A DNA stretch of 64,000 bases, from NCBI GenBank assembly GCA_015296085.1, contig DVDT01000063.1:124001-188000 (forward strand). Direction: 5' to 3'. A program made the position numbers and the translations under genes. This document shows, piece by piece, positions 37,005 through 59,795 of the stretch; the stretch's first letter is position 1; each line of letters starts with the position of its first letter. This stretch comes from Trichormus sp. M33_DOE_039. Its GTDB lineage: Bacteria; Cyanobacteriota; Cyanobacteriia; Cyanobacteriales; Nostocaceae. The notes under the pieces were generated by a model. That model searched no databases. It saw only the letters and a program-made list of their open reading frames with translations, and was not told the DNA's origin.

Positions 37005-40000
37005 ATGAGTTCTGTTTTATACTCTTTATCTGAATCTGCCAATTTGTACCCCGCCTCAGAATTATTTTTGCGTCACCGTCTGCAAATCGTGGAAGAATTG
37101 TGGGAGTCCGTACTCCGGCAAGAATGTGGGCAAAATATGGTGGATTTGTTGCGTCAGTTACGTGATTTGTGTTCACCAGAAGGACAAGCAACAAAAGACC
37201 AGGCTATTTCTGCTGTCAAGTTGATTGAACAGTTAAATATTAACGAAGCCATTCGCGCTGCAAGGGGTTTTGCTCTATATTTTCAGCTGATCAACATCAT
37301 AGAGCAGGAATATGAACAACGGCAGCAATTAACTCGCTATTCTGAAGTCGAACAAGAACCAGCCCATCAGGAAAATTCTCACAATATTAACTATTCTTCT
37401 AACCAAAATGAAGATGATGTCATTTTCAATCGTGGCGGAGGAATGGACTGGCTAACTAAAAATGGTTCTTCTAGAGAACAAAACAGACAAAAAGGTACAT
37501 TCGCCGCCCTGTTTCCCCTCTTACAAAAGTTGAATGTCCCACCCCAACAAATTCAACGCCTCATTTCCCAATTAGATGTCCGTTTGGTGTTTACCGCCCA
37601 CCCGACAGAAATTGTCCGCCACACCATCCGCGATAAACAACGTCAAGTAGTTAAACTATTGCAACAACTAGATGCGGTAGAAAACCACAAAAGCAACGGC
37701 GGCGGTTATCCTTGGGAAGCTGGAGAAATTCGCGAAAAACTCCTCGAAGAAATTCGTCTGTGGTGGCGCACTGATGAACTACACCAATTCAAGCCCACGG
37801 TGTTAGATGAAGTAGATTATGCCCTGCACTACTTCCAAGAAGTTTTATTTGATGGTATCCCCCAACTATATAAACGCTTTAAGTACGCTTTGGGGAAAAC
37901 ATTTCCTTGGCTAGAACCACCCAGCACAGATTTTTGTTCATTTGGTTCTTGGGTGGGTTCGGATAGAGATGGGAATCCCTCGGTGACACCGGAAGTTACC
38001 TGGCAAACAGCCTGTTATCAACGCAAAATGGTGCTGGAGAGATATATCAAGTCAGTCAAACAACTGATTGAATTACTCAGTATCTCCATGCACTGGAGTG
38101 ATGTTTTACCTGATTTGCTGGAATCTTTAGAGTTAGATCAATCCCAGTTAAGTGAAGTTTACGACGCATTAGCTTTAAGATATCGTCAAGAACCCTATCG
38201 TCTCAAACTGTCTTATGTATTGAAGCGGTTAGAAAATACCAGCGATCGCAATTTAGCTTTATATAAAGGTGAAACTCCCACCAACGAAGATAGCCCCATG
38301 TACCGGAACGGTACAGATTTTTTGACAGAACTGCGCTTGGTTCAGCGTAATTTGACGGAAACGGGCTTAAGCTGTAGAGAATTAGATAATCTCATCTGTC
38401 AAGTTGAAATTTTCGACTTTAACCTCACCCAATTAGATATTCGCCAAGAATCTTCCCGACACTCGGATGCTTTAAACGAGATTCTGGAATACCTGCAAAT
38501 TCTGCCCCAATCTTACAATGACCTCACGGAAGAACAGCGCGTAGAGTGGTTAACCAGCGAACTACAAACTCGTCGTCCCTTAATCTCCGCCGAATTGCCA
38601 TTTTCCGACAAGACTAATGATGTCATTAAAACCTTCCGGGTGGTGCGATCGCTACAACAAGAATTTGGGGTGAACATCTGCAAAACTTACATTATCAGTA
38701 TGTGCCGCCAAGTCAGCGACGTACTAGAAGTTTTGCTATTAGCCAAGGAAGCCAGATTATTTGACCCAGCGATCGCAGTTGGGACGATTCAAGTTGTACC
38801 ATTATTTGAAACCGTGGAAGACTTGCAACGTTCCCGCAGCATCATGCGGCAATTATTTGAACTTCCCCTGTATCGCGCTTTACTCGCAGGCGGTTACGCA
38901 GCCCTGAACGGTAGTCAAGAACCCCTTCCCCCTTCGCCTCATCTCCCCCTACCCACTGAGTCGTTTTCTCTTACCCCCGATTTACAGGAGGTAATGCTGG
39001 GGTATTCTGATAGCAACAAAGACTCAGGCTTTTTGAGTAGTAACTGGGAAATTCACAAAGCTCAAAAATCTTTGCAGAAAATTGCCGAAGAATACGGCGT
39101 AAACCTGCGAATTTTCCACGGACGCGGCGGTTCTGTAGGCAGAGGGGGCGGCCCAGCCCACGAAGCGATTTTGGCACAACCAGGCCATAGCATCAACGGC
39201 CGCATCAAGATTACAGAACAAGGGGAAGTATTAGCTTCCAAATACTCCTTGCTAGACTTGGCTTTATACAACCTAGAAACCATCACCACGGCGGTAATTC
39301 AAGCTAGCTTACTGCGGACAGGGTTTGATGATATCGAACCTTGGAACGAAATTATGGAAGAATTAGCGGCGCGATCGCGGCAGCATTATCGTGCTTTAAT
39401 TTACGAACAGCCCGATTTTATTGATTTCTTTCACCAAGTTACCCCCATCGAAGAAATCAGCCAACTCCAAATCAGTTCTCGTCCCGCCCGTCGTCCCTCT
39501 GGTAAAAAAGACTTAAGTAGTCTCCGCGCCATTCCTTGGGTATTTAGTTGGACACAAACCCGCTTTTTGCTACCTTCTTGGTACGGCGTAGGTACAGCTT
39601 TACAAGAATTTTTGGGTGAAGAAGCAGAAGAACACCTAAAATTACTGCGCTACTTTTACGTTAAATGGCCATTCTTCAAGATGGTCATTTCCAAAGCCGA
39701 AATGACCCTAGCAAAAGTAGATATGCAAATGGCGCGTCACTACGTCCAGGAATTATCTAACCCTGAAGATAGGGCTAGATTTGAGACAGTATTTGAACAA
39801 ATCGCCAGTGAATTCTACCTCACTAGGGATTTAGTTCTGAAAATCACAGATCATAGTCGGTTATTAGATGGCGATCCCGTGCTACAACGTTCTGTACAGT
39901 TACGAAACGGTACAATTGTACCTCTAGGATTTATCCAAGTTTCTCTCCTCAAACGTCTACGCCAGTCCAAAAATATTGCTACCTCCGGTGTAATTCATTC

Positions 40001-40082
40001 ACGTTACAGCAAAGGCGAATTACTCAGAGGCGCACTATTAACAATTAATGGTATTGCGGCAGGAATGAGAAATACCGGTTGA
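37005..40082 (+). CDS. ppc: Phosphoenolpyruvate carboxylase
   Basis: A 1025-residue PEP carboxylase that forms oxaloacetate from PEP and bicarbonate, feeding nitrogen assimilation and C4 acids. Catalytic motifs: '[20 protein letters not shown]' near 193-212 (catalytic His), '[20 protein letters not shown]' near 312-331, '[20 protein letters not shown]' near 664-683, and '[20 protein letters not shown]' near 706-725. It ends in the conserved 'GMRNTG'. A low-complexity insertion '[16 protein letters not shown]' sits at about residues 639-654, just before the conserved '[18 protein letters not shown]', and an acidic/Asn-rich loop occupies about 118-160. Single gene. Confidence 0.98.
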
Positions 40083-46670: not shown

Positions 46671-46752
46671 GGATGTGGGTGTGTAGGGAAGACAAGGTAG
46701 ACAAGGTAGACAGAGTAAATATATATTTACTATGCCCAATGCCCAAGACCCA

Positions 46753-47490
46753 ATGACTAACTTATTGCCAGAAATGGCAGAAAACTGGCAAAAAACTCTT
46801 AATTGGCAACCTACTGAAGAACAGCAGGCGCGATTGCAGCATTTGTATGAATTAATCCTCGAAGGGAATCGCCAGTTAAATTTAACTCGCATTACTGAGC
46901 CTCAAGAGTTTTGGGAAAAGCATCTTTGGGATTCTTTACGGGGAATTGCACCACGGCAGCAATTGATCTCGTCTCTGGAGGTTGGTGCATCTGTAATTGA
47001 TATTGGTACGGGTGCGGGTTTTCCTGGTGTTCCCATCGCTATTGTTGCACCCAATTCCACAATTACACTTGTGGATTCAACCCGCAAAAAGATGACTTTT
47101 ATCGACAAAATCTTGAGTGAATTGGCACTTAATAATGCTAAAACTCTGGTTGGTAGAGCCGAAGAAATTGGTCAGCAACAACAGCATCGAGAAAATTATG
47201 ACATGGCTTTAATTCGCGCTGTTGGTAATGCTTCTGTCTGTGCTGAGTATACTCTGCCTTTACTTAAAAAAGGTGGTTTAGCTGTAATTTATCGTGGTAC
47301 TTGGACTCAAGAGGAAACTACAGCTTTGCAAGATGCAGTGCAGCAATTAGGTGGTGAAATTGAATCCATCGAGCAGTTTGTGACTCCTCTTAGCAATAGT
47401 ATTCGCCACTGTTTATATTTGCGAAAGGTCACAACCACGCCTGCGAAGTTTCCCCGCGCTGTTGGCATACCAACTCAAAAGCCATTGTAA
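46753..47490 (+). CDS. rsmG: 16S rRNA (guanine-N7)-methyltransferase RsmG (GidB)
   Basis: About 245 residues from ATG 46753; another ATG at 46732 adds MPNAQDP, but those codons are repeat DNA (ATGCCCAATGCCCAAGACCCA) of an intergenic type, so the later start is preferred. RsmG methylates G527 of 16S rRNA using SAM. Motifs: 'LNLTRITEPQEFWEKHLWDS' near 40-59, SAM site 'VIDIGTGAGFPGVPIAIVAP' near 79-98, 'LVDSTRKKMTFI' near 104-115, and 'DMALIRAVGNASVCAEYTLP' near 147-166. Length is normal for the family. A perfect palindrome GTAAATATATATTTAC lies at 46715-46730, next to the first ATG. Confidence 0.94.
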   Translation: MTNLLPEMAENWQKTLNWQPTEEQQARLQHLYELILEGNRQLNLTRITEPQEFWEKHLWDSLRGIAPRQQLISSLEVGASVIDIGTGAGFPGVPIAIVAPNSTITLVDSTRKKMTFIDKILSELALNNAKTLVGRAEEIGQQQQHRENYDMALIRAVGNASVCAEYTLPLLKKGGLAVIYRGTWTQEETTALQDAVQQLGGEIESIEQFVTPLSNSIRHCLYLRKVTTTPAKFPRAVGIPTQKPL

Positions 47491-49131: not shown

Positions 49132-51204
49132 ATGGTAGATTTAGATACAAAAGAATGGTTGTTAACCAACGGCTTGGGTAGTTTTGCCAGTGGTACTGTT
49201 AGCGATGTCCGCACGCGGACTTATCATGGTTGGCTATTTGCTGCAACTAATCCACCGACTGGACGCATCTTATTGTTTTCGCACTTAGAAGCGAGCTTAG
49301 AAGTATCAAAAAAAGTTGTGGCACTGGGTACAAACATCTGGGGTACAGGTAATATTGAGCCGAAAGGCTACAAACTGCTACACACTTTCGATATTAACCC
49401 TGTTCCGAAATGGATTTGGGGTCAAGATGGCTGGCAAATAAGTAGGCAGTTGATGATGCCTCATGGTATGGGGGAGATTAGAGAAGGAAATCAGACTTCT
49501 AACTCTTTGATGTGTCATCGCCTGTTAATTCAATATCGTTACGAAGGTAGAGAAACGGCAATTTTAAGGCTGCGATTACTCATAGCTGATCGCGATTTCC
49601 ATAGTCAACAAAGTTATAGTTCAGACTTACAGTTTTCTCAATTGCTTGGTCATCAGCAAGTTTGTCTACAAGCGATGATTTCTGGGCATTTTGGTACGCC
49701 TTGGCGATTGCGTTGGACACAAGGAGAATATCGAGCAGACCCCGTATGGTACTGGAATTACGAGTTTCCAGAAGAAACAGAACGGGGATTAGGCGATCGC
49801 GAAGACCTCTTTAGCCCTGGCTATTTAACAGTGACCCTAAAACCAGGAGACGCAGTCACCTTAGAAGCACGATTGGGGTTTCCCGAACAATTCATAGAGC
49901 CTCTTACATCCGATACCTTTACAGAAGCCGTAGAAGCAGAGCAAGAACGACTAGGGACTGGGAACTGGAAATTAGGGGCTAAGAACAGGGGAGAAAAGGG
50001 AGACAAGGAAGCGGGGGAAAATGACTATTATCCAATACCCCATGTCCAATCTGCTATCTGGCAACAATTATTGAAAGCGGGCGATCAATTTATTGTCCAT
50101 CGCGCTTCTATTAACGGCCCTACGGTGATGGCTGGTTATCACTGGTTTGATGATTGGGGAAGAGATACCTTGATTGCTTTACCTGGATTGACGTTAGTCA
50201 CACAACGCTTTGAATTAGCTAAAAGTTTGTTACAAACTTTTGGGCGTTATTGTCGTCATGGACTCATCCCTAATTCTTTTCCAGAAATGGACAGTGAACC
50301 TGTCTATAACGGTATTGATGCAGCTTTATGGTGGATTGAAACTTTGGGACTGTATTTAGAAGCCACTCAAGATTGGCAATTTTTAGCTGAACAGTTTCCA
50401 GTAGTACAGCAAATTCATAAAGCATTTATCAGTGGTACACGCTATAACATTCAGGTCGATGCAACTGATGGATTGTTGGGTTGGGATGCACCCGGAGTAG
50501 CCCTGACTTGGATGGATGCCGTCATTGGCGGACAACCAGTCACACCGCGTCCTGGTAAACCAGTTGAAATTAATGCTCTGTGGTACTCCGCTTTATGTTG
50601 GATGAGTCAATGGGCAGAACGCTTAAGTCAGTTAGAAGTAGGTAGCGCAGTACGTTTAGCTAATCAGGGCAAACGTTATGCTCAACAGGCACAACAAGTA
50701 AAAGCTTCCCTGCAAAAATTTTGGAATCCACAATTAGGCTATTTGTACGACACCATCGATTTTGACGATCGCCGCAATGCTCAAATTCGCCCCAATGCAG
50801 TTTTAGCTCTATCTTTACATCATTGTGGTTTTTTACCATCCCAAGGTCGTCAAGTATTGTATTTAGCTACTGATCGCTTATTGACCCCCTATGGTCTTCG
50901 CAGTCTTGACCCAGCAGATCCAGGATATATGGGCCAATGTGTAGGTAATAGCGAGAAACGCGATCGCGCTTATCACCAGGGTACTGTCTGGACTTGGTTA
51001 ATTGGTGCTTTTATTCGGAGTTGGCAGCGTTTTATTCCCCAACAACCCTTGCCTTTTAGTTGGCAACCTTTGTTAGATCACTTATTGCATGATGCTTGTC
51101 TTGGTTCTATTTCTGAAATTTTTGATGGCGACCCACCACATCATCCTAGAGGTGCAGTAGCTCAAGCTTGGTCGATTTCTGAGGTGATTCGTCATATCCA
51201 ATAA
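49132..51204 (+). CDS. Amylo-alpha-1,6-glucosidase (glycogen debranching-type)
   Basis: A 690-residue protein of the GDE/GH133 type. The N-terminal domain begins 'MVDLDTKEWLLTNGLGSFAS' and 'VRTRTYHGWLFAATNPPTGR', and the catalytic (alpha/alpha)6 domain contains 'YHWFDDWGRDTLIALPGLTL' near 337-356 and 'NSFPEMDSEPVYNGIDAALW' near 380-399, with 'EINALWYSALCWMSQW' near 481-496. It should cleave alpha-1,6 branches of glycogen. A low-complexity insertion of about 25 residues ('LGTGNWKLGAKNRGEKGDK...') at about 274-298 comes from intergenic-type repeat DNA. It is preceded by the divergent peroxiredoxin gene and followed by 600 nt without a gene. Confidence 0.9.
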   Translation: MVDLDTKEWLLTNGLGSFASGTVSDVRTRTYHGWLFAATNPPTGRILLFSHLEASLEVSKKVVALGTNIWGTGNIEPKGYKLLHTFDINPVPKWIWGQDGWQISRQLMMPHGMGEIREGNQTSNSLMCHRLLIQYRYEGRETAILRLRLLIADRDFHSQQSYSSDLQFSQLLGHQQVCLQAMISGHFGTPWRLRWTQGEYRADPVWYWNYEFPEETERGLGDREDLFSPGYLTVTLKPGDAVTLEARLGFPEQFIEPLTSDTFTEAVEAEQERLGTGNWKLGAKNRGEKGDKEAGENDYYPIPHVQSAIWQQLLKAGDQFIVHRASINGPTVMAGYHWFDDWGRDTLIALPGLTLVTQRFELAKSLLQTFGRYCRHGLIPNSFPEMDSEPVYNGIDAALWWIETLGLYLEATQDWQFLAEQFPVVQQIHKAFISGTRYNIQVDATDGLLGWDAPGVALTWMDAVIGGQPVTPRPGKPVEINALWYSALCWMSQWAERLSQLEVGSAVRLANQGKRYAQQAQQVKASLQKFWNPQLGYLYDTIDFDDRRNAQIRPNAVLALSLHHCGFLPSQGRQVLYLATDRLLTPYGLRSLDPADPGYMGQCVGNSEKRDRAYHQGTVWTWLIGAFIRSWQRFIPQQPLPFSWQPLLDHLLHDACLGSISEIFDGDPPHHPRGAVAQAWSISEVIRHIQ

Positions 51205-54857: not shown

Positions 54858-57800
54858 TTAACCCCTACGTCCTAAATCATTGGTTAATTCCATAATTTTT
54901 TCAAACTGGAAATTATGAGCTAAACAACTGAAATATTCTTGTAACGCTGGATTTTCATTAGGCATTTGCTTGATTAAATCTAAAATCAAGTCATCACTAC
55001 CTTGAGCAGCAGCTTGATATATTTGTGCTATCCATTCTTGAGACATTGGGGATAGTAAAAGTAATACATCGTCAGTATTTAGTAATTTTCCTGAAGATTT
55101 TTGTCGGATACTGCACTTTTGATGAATATCTTCTTGATAAAGATAGCGGACACCCAAATACCGACTAAGCTTTTCTAAAATTTGTGATTTCTGAAATGGT
55201 TTGTTAATCAAATCATCACAACCAGCTTGGATCATTGCTGCTCGCTGTTCTTCAAAAACGTTAGCAGTTAAAGCAATAATAATTGTTTGGGGATGAGATG
55301 AATCGGGAACTGGGTGATTTTCATGCCAGGAAGCTTCAGGAAGGCATTTTTCCAACTGCAAGCAAGTTTCTCTTCTGCTTGCTCCTAGCGTAGTCATTGA
55401 CATCATCGTGCATTCTTTTTGATGCTCCAACTCCAGAGAGCGAATTAAGCGAGTAGTCTGATAACCATCCATTACAGGCATTCGCATATCCATGAAAATG
55501 ACATGAGGATGCCATGTTTCCCAGGCAGTAAGAGCCTCTTGACCATTGGCCGCTTCTTGCACCGCAAAACCAATAGATGAGAGGAGTTTCACTAATAACA
55601 GACGGCTATCTGGTATGTCATCTACAACTAAAATGCGATATTGGTCTTGCTGAGGTGCTAAACCCGTTACCCAACGAGATACTGAGGAGATGGACGTATC
55701 AGGTGCAACCATGACACCGACTTGAATATCAAAGGTAAATTGACTACCTCTTCCCAAATTACTATTGACCGCAATCTCTCCGCCCATCATCTGCACATAT
55801 TTGCGACTAATTGCCAATCCTAATCCTGTTCCCTGTTGTGATTGTCTGCCGCTTTCAGTTTGTCCAAAAGCTTCAAATAATAATTCCAGTTCTTGTGAAG
55901 CAATCCCTGCACCAGTATCTTTGACCTCGAAAGTAAGGTGGGTATGGGGCATGGTATTTTTTTCCTCCTGTTCCCAGTCCCTAGTCCCTAAACTTACCTG
56001 AAGCGTGACACTGCCAGCAGATGTAAACTTAATGGCATTGCCTACAATATTGAGTAGAACTTGTCGTAGTTTGCTTTCATCTGTTTGTACGTAATGAGGC
56101 AAATCCGGGGCATATTCAAATACCAGATTTAAACTTTTGGCTGTTGCCCGAATTTGCAACATTTCTTGCACATTATCCAACATCCGAATTAAATCAAAAC
56201 TGTTGAGATTTAAAGTGCTTCTGCCAGCTTCAATTTTGGACATTTCTAGAATGTCGTTGATCAGGTTCAGTAGATGTTCTCCGGCGCGGTTAATGATGGC
56301 TAGGTTCTGCTGATTGTCATAGGAGAGAGTGTTGTCATGGCTCATGAGTTGTGTGAATCCCAGAATGGCGTTTAAAGGTGTTCGCAATTCGTGGCTCATG
56401 TTGGCTAAAAATTCGCTCTTAGCTCGGTTGGCGGCATCTGCTGCTGTGACAGCAGTTTGTAATGCTTGTGATTGCTGTTGAGTTTGCGCTAATAATTGTG
56501 CCTGTTGCAAAGCTACTCCCAACTGATTGCCAATCTGCACTACGATGTTGATTTCCCCTGTTTTCCACTGGCGAGGACTAGAGTTTTGATAGCTAGCTAA
56601 TAATCCCCAAAGTTGATTACCACATAAGATGGGGACAGTGATATAGGCTTGGGCTTGAAACTGTTCTAAAAGATTGATGTAATTAGGGTTTAAGCCAGCT
56701 TGGTAGATGTCTGATACACAACAAAAACTTGTGCTTGTAGTAGGTGGTATATGTTGTTCTTGCAGTTGCATCTCTTGGATATCCAACATTTTAAGGACGC
56801 AACGGCCATTGGCTAAAGCATCTTTGGTGAGATTGGGGTTTTGTTGATGTAATTCAATCAATGAAACCCAAGTTGAGCTGACGGATTCAGCGACAAATTC
56901 ACCGTTCCAATCTGGATGGAAACGGTAAACAACGACGCGATCGCAATTCAGCACTTGCCGTAATTCTGCGGTAGTAGCAGTAAAAATAGTTTCCAAGTCT
57001 AAGGTTTGGCGCATCCTTTGAATCACTTGAGCGATCGCTCTTTCTCGTTCTATACTTTCACGTAATGCCGTTTCTGCGCGTTTCAGTCCACTAATTTCTA
57101 GCATGACAGTACCTACACCAGAGGGGCGATCGTCTTCTCCAGGAATAGGAAAATAGGAAACTAAAAAATGACGCAAACTATCAGGTGCATCAGAGGTAGC
57201 AATACTGAGTTCCCGATTTAAAATCGCTTCACCCGTTAATAGCACCTGTTGACAAAATGGTGTGACTAGAGAGTCAATCTGAGGTGCTATTTCATGGAGT
57301 GTTTTGCCGATGTGGTCTTTTGATGGTTTACCATAAATTTCTGCCATCAATTCGTTAATCTGCATGAAGCGCATTTTGTGGTCTAAGATATTCATGCCTA
57401 CGGGTGCGCCACTGAAAAAGGCATTGAGTCGAGCTTCCCGCAGTTCTAGTTGTTTTTCTAGGGTTTTGCGATCTGTAATATCTTTGTTCGTGCCGGTCAT
57501 CCGTAAAGGTACGCCCTGTTCATCGCGTTCTACGATTTGACCACGCGACTGTATCCATTTCCATTCCCCAGAGGCAGAACGCATCCGAAATTCCATCTCA
57601 TATACAGATGTCATACCTTGGAGATGGGCGTTAATAGCTGATCTGAGAGCGACTAAGTCTTCGGGATGAATTAATTGTTTGTTGACTAACTGATTATTAT
57701 CAACCTCGGATTCTGCGTAGCCTAGTATATCCTGCCATTTCCAGTCACGATAAATTTTTCCTGTGCGGAGATTCCAATCCCACAAGCCTAATTCACTGGC

Positions 57801-59795
57801 TGATAAAGCTAGCTGTAATCTTTCTTCACTTTGCCTGTGGGCAGCTTCAATCATATGCTGTTGAATTGAACTACCTAGCTGAGTAGCTACAGTACCGACT
57901 AGCATCAGTAATCGTCTATCTACAGACATGGTACTGCGCTTAAAAAATACTAAAACAGCTACTACTTCCCTACCAGCGAGAATAGGAACAGCAAAACCAG
58001 CTTTAAAGCCGATTTTGGCAGCTTGTGAAGAACGTAAAAATGTTGATTGGTTGACTAAAGAAATATCTTCAACCCATTCTGGCTTTTTTGTTTGCCATAC
58101 TCGTCCCGGTAGTCCCATTCCCAAAGTAAAGTTGATGGTCTGATGGCGATCGCAAAATTCTTCCAGACTGCTCTCTTCGCAGTAGCACACTGAACTATGC
58201 TCTAAAACACTGTGATCATCACTAGGTATCCATGCTTCCCCAAAATCCCAGCCGATGGTTTGGCAAATCAAACGCAGAACTAGAGTTAAGGCACTTTTGA
58301 CATCTATAGCACGGGTGATGGCTTGAGTCGTCAACAGCAATAAACGGCTTTCAGTTTCTGCTTGCTTGCGTTCGGTAATATCTTTAGCTGTCGCTAAGAC
58401 ATATTTTTTACTGTCTATTTCAATCATTTCTGCACTTAACAGCAACGTTTTGATTTCACCATTACAAGTGCGAAAATCAACTTCATGGTTGCGTAACGCT
58501 TTTGTTTGTTGCAGGATTTGGGAGAGAAAATGGCATTCTTGGGGATTTACCCAAATATTCAATTCGGCGTTGGTACTACCAATTACCTGTGTACGAGAAT
58601 AACCAAATAGCCGACAAAAACTGTCGTTAACCTCGATGTAGCGTGTTTCTGGAAAAGTACACAAGGCAATGGGGTCAGGCGAGGCTCTAAAGGCTGAGGC
58701 TAACTTTTGTTCAGAAGCCCGATGGGCTGCTTCTGCTCGTTGGCGTTCTCGTGCTTCTAATGCTAAAGAGACTAAATTACTTAAAGAACGGGCAAAATTT
58801 TGGTCTTCCTGTGTCCAATGATGAACTACTCCCACAGACTCTAAACACAATACTCCTACCGTTTTTTCCCCTAGGCGGATGGGTATATACAGGATAGAAG
58901 TAATATTTAAGGGACTAAAGTAAGTTTGGAATAGTTCTTGTAGGCGCGAGTCTTGGTAGACATGATCAGCTGCGATCACTTCATTTTGATGCAAAGCTTG
59001 AAAATACTCTGGATGTTCTGCTGCTGATAAAGTCCAGCCTTTACTATGTTTTTGGGCAGTTTTTTCAAATAAGTCTAAGCATTGAATCTGATGATCTGTT
59101 ACTTTATATAGCCAAATACTAGCTCTTTCAATACCTGTATTGATAGCTCCCACTTCTGTCACTTCTGCAAAAGCGGCAGATATATCTCCCTGAGATAGTG
59201 CTTGATGTTTCGCTAGTTGGCTTAATACTGAGTTATAGTTACATAACTTGAGAGCATCGACTGTCTGATTTGTTTGATTATCCTGGTTTTGTGGTTCAAT
59301 CTTTGTTTGAGCAATATTACATATCGACTCTATTTGTTGATTTTTTTGTGCTAGTTCGGTAGTTAAGTGTTGACATTTTTGTGTTTCTGTCAATAAGCGT
59401 TGCTGTAATTTTTGAATCTTCAGTTGGTTTTTGACTCTAATTAAAACTTCTTTTGGTCTTAATGGTTTAATAATGTAGTCAGCAAAGTTGAATTTAACTT
59501 GATTAAATACTAAAGATATTTCTTCGGTGAAGACAAGTAAAAATATTGGTATTTCTAATTTTTGATTGTTGAGTTTTAATATGTTATTAATTCTATGATC
59601 ATTCAGTTTAGCGATAGAAATATCTATTAAAATTATGTTGGGGATAAAATCTAAGTTTAAATAATTTTCTAATTGACTAAGAGATAATCTTTCTATTTGA
59701 GAATTGAGCGGAGCAAAAATTTTTGATAAAGAATGCCAATTTTCAATTTCGTTGTCAATTAGGAGAATTTTGATTGGGTAATCACCTAGATTCAT
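54858..59795 (-). CDS. Multi-sensor hybrid histidine kinase (REC-GAF-PAS-GAF-PAS-PAS-GAF-HisKA-HATPase-REC)
   Basis: A 1645-residue cytoplasmic kinase. Order by rough residue: receiver 1-125 ('ILLIDISIAKLNDHRI', Asp near 58; 'YIIKPLRPKEV'), coiled coil 130-170, GAF 200-345, PAS 360-480, GAF 490-645, PAS 655-785, PAS 790-910, GAF 925-1110 (phytochrome-like 'DRVVVYRFHPDWNGEFVAES'), HisKA ~1130-1200 with 'NMSHELRTPLNAILGF' (phosphorylated His), ATPase ~1245-1365 (N box 'LRQVLLNIVGNAIKFT', 'DTGAGI', 'GTGLGLAISRKYVQ'), second receiver ~1395-1570 ('LVVDD', 'VIFMDMRMPVMDGY', 'NKPF'), and a helical tail. No chromophore Cys is obvious. Inside the ATPase is a repeat-derived stretch and inside the second receiver a ~35-residue insertion. 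Ligands unknown. It stands alone. Confidence 0.92.
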   Translation of the reverse strand: MNLGDYPIKILLIDNEIENWHSLSKIFAPLNSQIERLSLSQLENYLNLDFIPNIILIDISIAKLNDHRINNILKLNNQKLEIPIFLLVFTEEISLVFNQVKFNFADYIIKPLRPKEVLIRVKNQLKIQKLQQRLLTETQKCQHLTTELAQKNQQIESICNIAQTKIEPQNQDNQTNQTVDALKLCNYNSVLSQLAKHQALSQGDISAAFAEVTEVGAINTGIERASIWLYKVTDHQIQCLDLFEKTAQKHSKGWTLSAAEHPEYFQALHQNEVIAADHVYQDSRLQELFQTYFSPLNITSILYIPIRLGEKTVGVLCLESVGVVHHWTQEDQNFARSLSNLVSLALEARERQRAEAAHRASEQKLASAFRASPDPIALCTFPETRYIEVNDSFCRLFGYSRTQVIGSTNAELNIWVNPQECHFLSQILQQTKALRNHEVDFRTCNGEIKTLLLSAEMIEIDSKKYVLATAKDITERKQAETESRLLLLTTQAITRAIDVKSALTLVLRLICQTIGWDFGEAWIPSDDHSVLEHSSVCYCEESSLEEFCDRHQTINFTLGMGLPGRVWQTKKPEWVEDISLVNQSTFLRSSQAAKIGFKAGFAVPILAGREVVAVLVFFKRSTMSVDRRLLMLVGTVATQLGSSIQQHMIEAAHRQSEERLQLALSASELGLWDWNLRTGKIYRDWKWQDILGYAESEVDNNQLVNKQLIHPEDLVALRSAINAHLQGMTSVYEMEFRMRSASGEWKWIQSRGQIVERDEQGVPLRMTGTNKDITDRKTLEKQLELREARLNAFFSGAPVGMNILDHKMRFMQINELMAEIYGKPSKDHIGKTLHEIAPQIDSLVTPFCQQVLLTGEAILNRELSIATSDAPDSLRHFLVSYFPIPGEDDRPSGVGTVMLEISGLKRAETALRESIERERAIAQVIQRMRQTLDLETIFTATTAELRQVLNCDRVVVYRFHPDWNGEFVAESVSSTWVSLIELHQQNPNLTKDALANGRCVLKMLDIQEMQLQEQHIPPTTSTSFCCVSDIYQAGLNPNYINLLEQFQAQAYITVPILCGNQLWGLLASYQNSSPRQWKTGEINIVVQIGNQLGVALQQAQLLAQTQQQSQALQTAVTAADAANRAKSEFLANMSHELRTPLNAILGFTQLMSHDNTLSYDNQQNLAIINRAGEHLLNLINDILEMSKIEAGRSTLNLNSFDLIRMLDNVQEMLQIRATAKSLNLVFEYAPDLPHYVQTDESKLRQVLLNIVGNAIKFTSAGSVTLQVSLGTRDWEQEEKNTMPHTHLTFEVKDTGAGIASQELELLFEAFGQTESGRQSQQGTGLGLAISRKYVQMMGGEIAVNSNLGRGSQFTFDIQVGVMVAPDTSISSVSRWVTGLAPQQDQYRILVVDDIPDSRLLLVKLLSSIGFAVQEAANGQEALTAWETWHPHVIFMDMRMPVMDGYQTTRLIRSLELEHQKECTMMSMTTLGASRRETCLQLEKCLPEASWHENHPVPDSSHPQTIIIALTANVFEEQRAAMIQAGCDDLINKPFQKSQILEKLSRYLGVRYLYQEDIHQKCSIRQKSSGKLLNTDDVLLLLSPMSQEWIAQIYQAAAQGSDDLILDLIKQMPNENPALQEYFSCLAHNFQFEKIMELTNDLGRRG

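Follow-up and report, generated by a model that had tools for sequence, protein, structure and literature searches.

Heptamer-type repeat DNA read in frame in the interdomain linker of a cyanobacterial glycogen debranching enzyme gene

The stretch of DNA analysed here (the window) comprises 64,000 nucleotides of Trichormus sp. M33_DOE_039 (contig DVDT01000063.1, positions 124,001-188,000 of the forward strand). It contains an intact gene for a debranching enzyme, the open reading frame of which is uninterrupted from 49132 to 51204. Both Pfam domains of the GDE-type glycogen debranching enzymes were found in its product above their curated cut-offs, GDE_N at residues 7-243 (232 bits, cut-off 27) and GDE_C at residues 316-687 (455.1 bits, cut-off 21), and the NCBIfam label of the product is that of a putative archaeal-type GDE. 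Repeat-like DNA (49949-50051) sits in the linker joining GDE_N to GDE_C; from left to right it consists of GGGGACT-type heptamers, a GGGAGACAA / GGGAGACAAGGAAG-type unit and CCCAATG-type heptamers. The features discussed below are the following:

49132-51204, plus strand: glycogen debranching enzyme gene (GDE_N and GDE_C), 690 amino acids, intact
49468-49512, plus strand: second repeat-accepting loop, residues 113-127 of the GDE protein, between two GDE_N strands
49949-50051, plus strand: decayed composite repeat read in frame, 103 bp
49953-49990, plus strand: module A, decayed GGGGACT-type heptamers (lag-7 match 0.52 against 0.30 in shuffles, P 0.0064)
49954-50061, plus strand: whole interdomain linker, residues 275-310, from the alignment of GDE rows
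49988-50021, plus strand: module B, GGGAGACAAGGAAG-type unit, a short module that is weak evidence by itself, given its reversed-pattern control
50031-50050, plus strand: module C, TCCAATACCCCATGTCCAAT, decayed CCCAATG-type heptamers, recognized by eye against dispersed copies
55941-55991, minus strand: LGTRDWEQEEKNTMPHT, a heptamer-like sequence within the part of hybrid kinase gene 54858-59795 that encodes the HATPase_c domain

According to the preliminary description of this DNA, the coding sequence here turns into repeats that encode the peptide LGTGNWKLGAKNRGEKGDK without loss of the reading frame, and the same LGT-x-x-W start recurs in the kinase gene. Both observations were confirmed: the letters and the peptide are as described, within an open frame, and the kinase gene reads LGTRDW on the minus strand from about 55991 down. 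Part of the kinase-gene stretch differs in the orthologue from genome G006. Two further genes of the window contain stretches that may be of a similar kind. The gene 46732-47490, which we take to be RsmG-like, begins with MPNAQDPMTN, and its first codons (46732-46751) lie in CCCAATG-type heptamers; its start may be elsewhere or may be repeat-derived. The PEP carboxylase (37005-40082) has a proline-rich stretch of 18 residues, which may be another repeat-derived loop.

The lag-7 self-match of 49949-50051 is 0.47, against 0.28 in shuffles, and none of 5000 shuffles was as high. The pattern GGGACTGGGNACTGGGNACTGG has 38 partly overlapping matches in the genome of the organism, against none for the reversed pattern. 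Within this genome the window copy is decayed: its best non-self matches are 27-29 nt long (E 4.0e-4 and 7.5e-4), only two hits, including the kinase-gene copy, reached 32 bits in a sample of 864 kb (12% of the genome), and the mean of the ten best hits in that sample, 31.6 bits, lies above the 95th percentile (26.6) but below the maximum (31.9) of 200 shuffles. The window linker contains no exact 12-mer from the set frequent in the intergenic sample of its own genome. With such 12-mers lacking and hits so few, the origin of the stretch has to be judged from degenerate similarity and from sister genomes.

The whole gene was used as a query against 13 genus genomes, for each of which the best 23 of 28-98 candidates were scored, the match counts, made by hand, being lower bounds. 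Among the 58 matches listed, 17 were orthologues and 41 lay elsewhere. No fewer than 31 of these 41 fall in query positions 818-920, i.e., in 49949-50051, which makes up 5% of the query, while the remaining ten, in GDE_C, seem to come from a paralogue. The 31 dispersed matches listed come from eight of the 12 sister genomes, and none of the matches listed comes from the window's own genome. Twenty of the 31 copies were read by eye; heptamers A are followed by unit B in about 13 of them, and the full A-B-C order is present in about eight.

Genes in the 864-kb sample were called with a simple in-house caller (76-85% coding). Exact period-7 arrays numbered 24, against none in one Markov copy, and were accompanied by ten arrays of period 8, three of period 9 and none of periods 4-6; the genome thus carries STRR, i.e., tandem seven-base units with many intergenic copies. 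A looser definition gave 54 arrays, 46 of them outside called genes and eight inside seven genes. Given the coding fraction, arrays avoid genes, yet they are not absent from them. The array-bearing genes encode a CbiA/CobB-type synthase (two arrays), a probable citramalate synthase, a lipoate/biotin-ligase-family protein, two NRPS proteins, a GH38 mannosidase, in which the array lies between two Pfam domains (scanned without the last 85 residues), and a GHL10 protein, in which it lies at residue 20 and the start may be wrong. The two NRPS genes are close to each other (L189:92-5638 and L189:9079-12558, in G000 C98), one having its heptamer array within the AMP-binding match and the other just after it.

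At up to two mismatches, modules A and C are internal to genes at 23 of 116 places (with A and C places overlapping in a few cases), whereas the stop-rich TGACTAA (module D) is so at none of 37 (P 0.0012); reversed patterns of A, C and D gave 4, 1 and 1 places, none of them genic. The contrast is not significant at one mismatch (0/17 against 10/54, P 0.10) or at none (0/6 against 3/27, P 1), and among the 20 genic A places some look like chance on reading, e.g., the NRPS gene stretch C98:8469-8484. Module B alone was rejected as genome-wide evidence, being too short (20 places, 11 genic, against six places, four genic, for the reversed pattern).

The frame properties of heptamer repeats would offer a simple reason for their entry into coding DNA. 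Because seven is one more than a multiple of three, a tandem heptamer is read as the same cyclic heptapeptide whichever frame of a strand is used (GTGDWGL, with SPQSPVP on the reverse strand); the phase of insertion is therefore irrelevant to the repeat, and total length alone must restore the downstream frame. Ideal arrays of GGGGACT, GGGGATT, GGGAGACAA, CCCAATG and GGGGAGCA contain no stop in any of the six frames, those of CCAATTA and AACAGTC are stop-free on just one strand, and TGACTAA has stops in all six frames. The decayed copy in the window is now open in the gene's own frame only, as expected for translated DNA.

The GDE alignment comprised 93 rows (80 loci, 12 loci from a genus search, and the window), 89 of them distinct, with L100 and L102 partial at both sites considered here. 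The linker has five residues in six loci of one Calothrix clade (L085-L089, L093) and 7-14 in non-cyanobacterial rows. L094 and L105, which bear the names Microcoleus and Coleofasciculaceae, have 15, and all remaining complete cyanobacterial rows have 17-135, among them L064, also named Calothrix, with 65. The second site, measured from MPHG to CHR, has seven residues in non-cyanobacterial rows and in five of the six Calothrix-clade loci (16 in L085); L094 and L105 have 14 here, and the remaining complete rows 17-80. Among 77 cyanobacterial rows, internal differences in length are almost confined to these two loops and a smaller site at residue 172. Mean pairwise identity in the 13 genus genomes, with gaps counted as mismatches, is 0.23 in the linker against 0.73 and 0.89 in its 30-residue flanks, and in the second loop it is 15% against 85% and 89%.

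With two mismatches allowed, repeat modules were found in 29 of 89 linkers (8757 bp in total), in 18 of 89 second loops (residues about 110-130; 5748 bp) and in only five of 89 rest-of-gene parts (167964 bp, about 12 times both loops together), all five being module B. Reversed-pattern controls gave 1, 3 and 0, respectively, and module D was found in none of the three parts in the 89 orthologues; 60 of the linkers have no module at this threshold. The lag-7 match is higher in linkers (0.39) than in the domains (0.27 and 0.24), and the linkers also have a raised match at lag 8 (0.36). Exact intergenic 12-mers, compared after removal of HIP1-like sites (a likeness read by eye), occupy 190 of 8234 positions in linkers against six of 104289 in GDE_C; the 141 of 75302 positions retained in GDE_N are attributed as a group, rather than mapped singly, to the loop at 110-130. 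Linker length is weakly correlated with repeat density in flanks of about 3 kb (rho 0.32, P 0.003, n=80, uncorrected for relatedness), with exceptions in the short-linker Calothrix loci L085 and L089, which have flank repeats, and in the repeat-linker locus L040, which has none.

Two other array-bearing enzymes, the CbiA/CobB-type synthase and the citramalate synthase, whose identity is probable from its HMGL-like and LeuA_dimer domains, were compared across 13 genomes. In the latter, the stretch from QDVVKAT to IPQIGIHTHND differs by species, contains repeat-like peptides in most of them (by eye) and is shortest in L219 and L220; rows G005 and G008 have one stop each inside the matched range. 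In the alignment to homocitrate synthase 6ktq, query residues 200-231 face four residues, 216-219. Going by the general architecture of TIM barrels, this loop, which just precedes the HxH-motif strand, presumably lies on the side of the barrel opposite the active site. The CbiA/CobB-type synthase behaves likewise at its two sites. Comparison of 69 orthologous pairs with G006 revealed 12 internal variable loops in nine genes, two of them intein-like and about five repeat-like by eye, counts that give no rate, as the G006 regions were picked around its GDE and CbiA/CobB-type genes. One long open reading frame (L173:8104-11622, at G000 C21:88104-91622), 98% identical to its G006 match in the best stretch, has one intein-like insertion that is confined to G000 (after residue 275) and another that is confined to G006 (after residue 824).

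Taken together, the sharing of modules with dispersed copies, the conserved flanks and the different repeats in different species point to a filler drawn from a repeat pool. We consider it probable (about 0.8) that intergenic STRR-type repeats, in a composite that has decayed and is translated, make up the stretch, which fills a tolerated and remodelled interdomain linker. Repeat DNA would enter the loop by insertion or ectopic recombination, and the repeats could then grow, shrink and be swapped via slippage and recombination between short direct repeats. They would persist as the loop is structurally free and the modules are frame-tolerant, selection acting only against copies that introduce a stop or put the sequence downstream out of frame. 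The consequence for the enzyme is most likely none or slight. The linker is probably disordered, as far as can be judged from the enzyme's AlphaFold model (based on 42 rows, with a mean pLDDT of 80.4), in which pLDDT falls below 50 at residues 113-127 and 277-305, i.e., at both repeat sites; the only other runs of three or more such residues are 1-17, 71-74 and 336-339. This is supportive, not decisive, since gaps in the alignment would by themselves lower the confidence there to some extent.

The history of the site appears to be longer than had been assumed. The preliminary description took the stretch for an insertion of intergenic-type repeats that survives in frame as tolerated linker. 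Similar stretches in other genes support this, and the linker is indeed extended relative to the six-locus Calothrix clade, L094, L105 and the non-cyanobacterial outgroups; the same residues were sought in distant cyanobacteria among the 93 aligned rows, as a sign of ancestral sequence, and were not found. A single recent event private to this genome seems not to hold, however, in view of the extended linkers of other complete cyanobacterial rows, the different repeats in different species, and the GGGACT heptamers present at the same linker point in two genus members, L120 and L124, which suggest that the array predates the species. By eye, the window copy resembles the L124 linker minus a stretch between two short repeats, CGACTA being followed directly by GGGACTGG, so that the heptamers here are probably older than the species and have been remodelled. 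The earlier interpretation is thus right in spirit but too simple in history, and a long-lived, remodelled repeat-accepting loop is more likely than one fresh insertion.

A single array inserted in an early heterocystous-cyanobacterial ancestor, with decay and turnover ever since, is a reading to which we give a real, though minority, chance. It would account for the SQIFGW-like start common to many linkers and for the GGGACT heptamers shared by L120, L124 and, after the short deletion, the window, but the module families differ by lineage, and the second loop and other genes behave alike. Such an event is compatible with a filler from the repeat pool, as its first step.

That the linker is ordinary low-complexity sequence expanded in situ by local slippage, its likeness to intergenic repeats arising since both slip alike, seems unlikely. 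Some linkers do resemble simple local expansions (in the L131 linker, alone among the aligned rows, a repeat of some nine bases gives a run of GGV tripeptides), and the window copy matches its own genome weakly. Against this, several modules stand in an order common to dispersed copies, and slippage alone is insufficient for the non-tandem dispersed elements that were found in linkers. First, the heptamers of the G010 linker are broken in frame by a 24-base element, ACTTCGACAAGCTCAGTGCATCGC, with four matches in G010, the GDE copy included, at up to two mismatches, and none for the reversed pattern in any of the 13 genomes. Second, a 42-base element (up to three mismatches) occurs at seven places in five of the 13 genomes, one of them the G011 linker, with none for the reversed pattern, and was also found by reading inside the L060 linker. 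The 24-base element has 59 matches in G009, against 0-4 in each of the other 12 genomes, suggesting a recent burst.

Retention of the repeats for a function, be it tuning of the linker or a structure formed by the gene's RNA or DNA, is quite improbable: all complete cyanobacterial rows outside the Calothrix clade, L094 and L105 do keep at least 17 residues and several linker RNAs fold better than shuffles, but linker length (17-135 residues) and sequence are unconserved between conserved flanks, the Calothrix clade manages with five residues, and shuffles fold at least as well as the window copy (z +1.26). For the window copy itself a hairpin or terminator-like RNA function was rejected on this value. 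The median z is -0.36 for 20 dispersed copies, four of which lie at -2.4 to -4.3, and -1.17 for the 47 GDE linkers of at least 100 nt (best L092, -8.5, and L063, -7.3); the difference between these two sets is not significant (P 0.12). An RNA-level role is possible in the well-folding linkers of at least 100 nt.

The preferred reading, a translated filler from intergenic repeats, has its closest known counterpart in the Rickettsia palindromic elements (RPE), for which a Wolbachia equivalent is also reportedly known, going by a reference title. In the parts of the sources available, RPE are described as short repeats found between genes and in frame within conserved Rickettsia protein genes, an RPE-bearing guanylate kinase being translated and active (PMC10969869, PMC2229807), and a similar mechanism in other prokaryotes is called conceivable (PMC10969869). 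The likeness lies in short repeats that are both intergenic and in frame in conserved genes, as found here without a frame break in the GDE, the citramalate synthase and the CbiA/CobB-type synthase. As far as those excerpts describe them, RPE are palindromes of about 105-150 bp with terminal inverted repeats and an open reading frame of their own, whereas here tandem arrays of 7-9 bp occur with small dispersed repeats, and the repeats that fill a given loop vary from species to species. No palindrome or long stem-loop was found in the window copy (z +1.26) or as a rule in the 20 dispersed copies (median z -0.36). Among the relatives no empty site was found that would be near enough to fix the ends of the window array, and these ends are degenerate tandem arrays.

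The second relevant group is formed by the tandem repeats of cyanobacteria. In 1997 Vioque reportedly described STRR in an RNase P RNA gene, to judge from the title, and Elhai and colleagues are said to have described, in 2008, small dispersed repeats that insert into tandem heptamers in Nostoc. The accessible part of one study gives the units of STRR in heterocystous cyanobacteria as usually 7 bp and intergenic (PMC2670836). The seven-base units and intergenic abundance are shared with the repeats analysed here, which differ in being a recurrent part of conserved enzymes rather than the intergenic or RNA-gene features described in those excerpts. In the majority of repeat-rich genomes heptanucleotides are the commonest class of repeat, and for TAACTGA heptamers reading frames and stops were considered, with possible tolerance between subunits of modular proteins, according to the text available of PMC4679880 (citing Mrazek, 2007 for the former). 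The same frame-and-stop reasoning applies here, but, as presented in that text, TAACTGA has stops in all three forward frames, while the modules described above are stop-free and some lie inside conserved enzymes. In the available portion of a study on Borgs, tandem repeats in open reading frames make disordered regions, and a section heading names a conserved hotspot; those are perfect amino-acid repeats under very strong selection, unlike the degenerate, species-variable repeats shared with dispersed DNA in our case (PMC9879509). Easy tolerance is counted against by Anabaena sp. 90, in which, according to the part of the report available, 15 of 147 MITEs lie in disrupted open reading frames predicted as pseudogenes (PMC3542288). 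A limited search of titles and abstract openings revealed no paper on heptamer repeats that recurrently fill loops of cyanobacterial enzymes, and the text available of PMC3610870 contributed nothing on heptamers within genes.

Among bacteria, proteins with in-frame repeats are known above all from Rickettsia, with its special, reduced genomes; here they occur in conserved metabolic enzymes of cyanobacteria. The finding calls for caution in protein alignments, gene calling and phylogenies in cyanobacteria of this kind, and the frame argument offers a simple reason why heptamer repeats can pass from intergenic into coding DNA. The same loops, filled in many species, represent a natural experiment on insertion-tolerant protein positions. 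It is possible, although we put the odds somewhat below even, that heterocystous cyanobacteria have proteome-wide repeat-accepting loops in core enzymes, fed by intergenic repeats that are readable in any frame owing to their unit length and sequence; the exchange of repeats between intergenic DNA and such loops would then be a principal cause of length change in conserved proteins, and this filter would have shaped the families of stop-free repeats.
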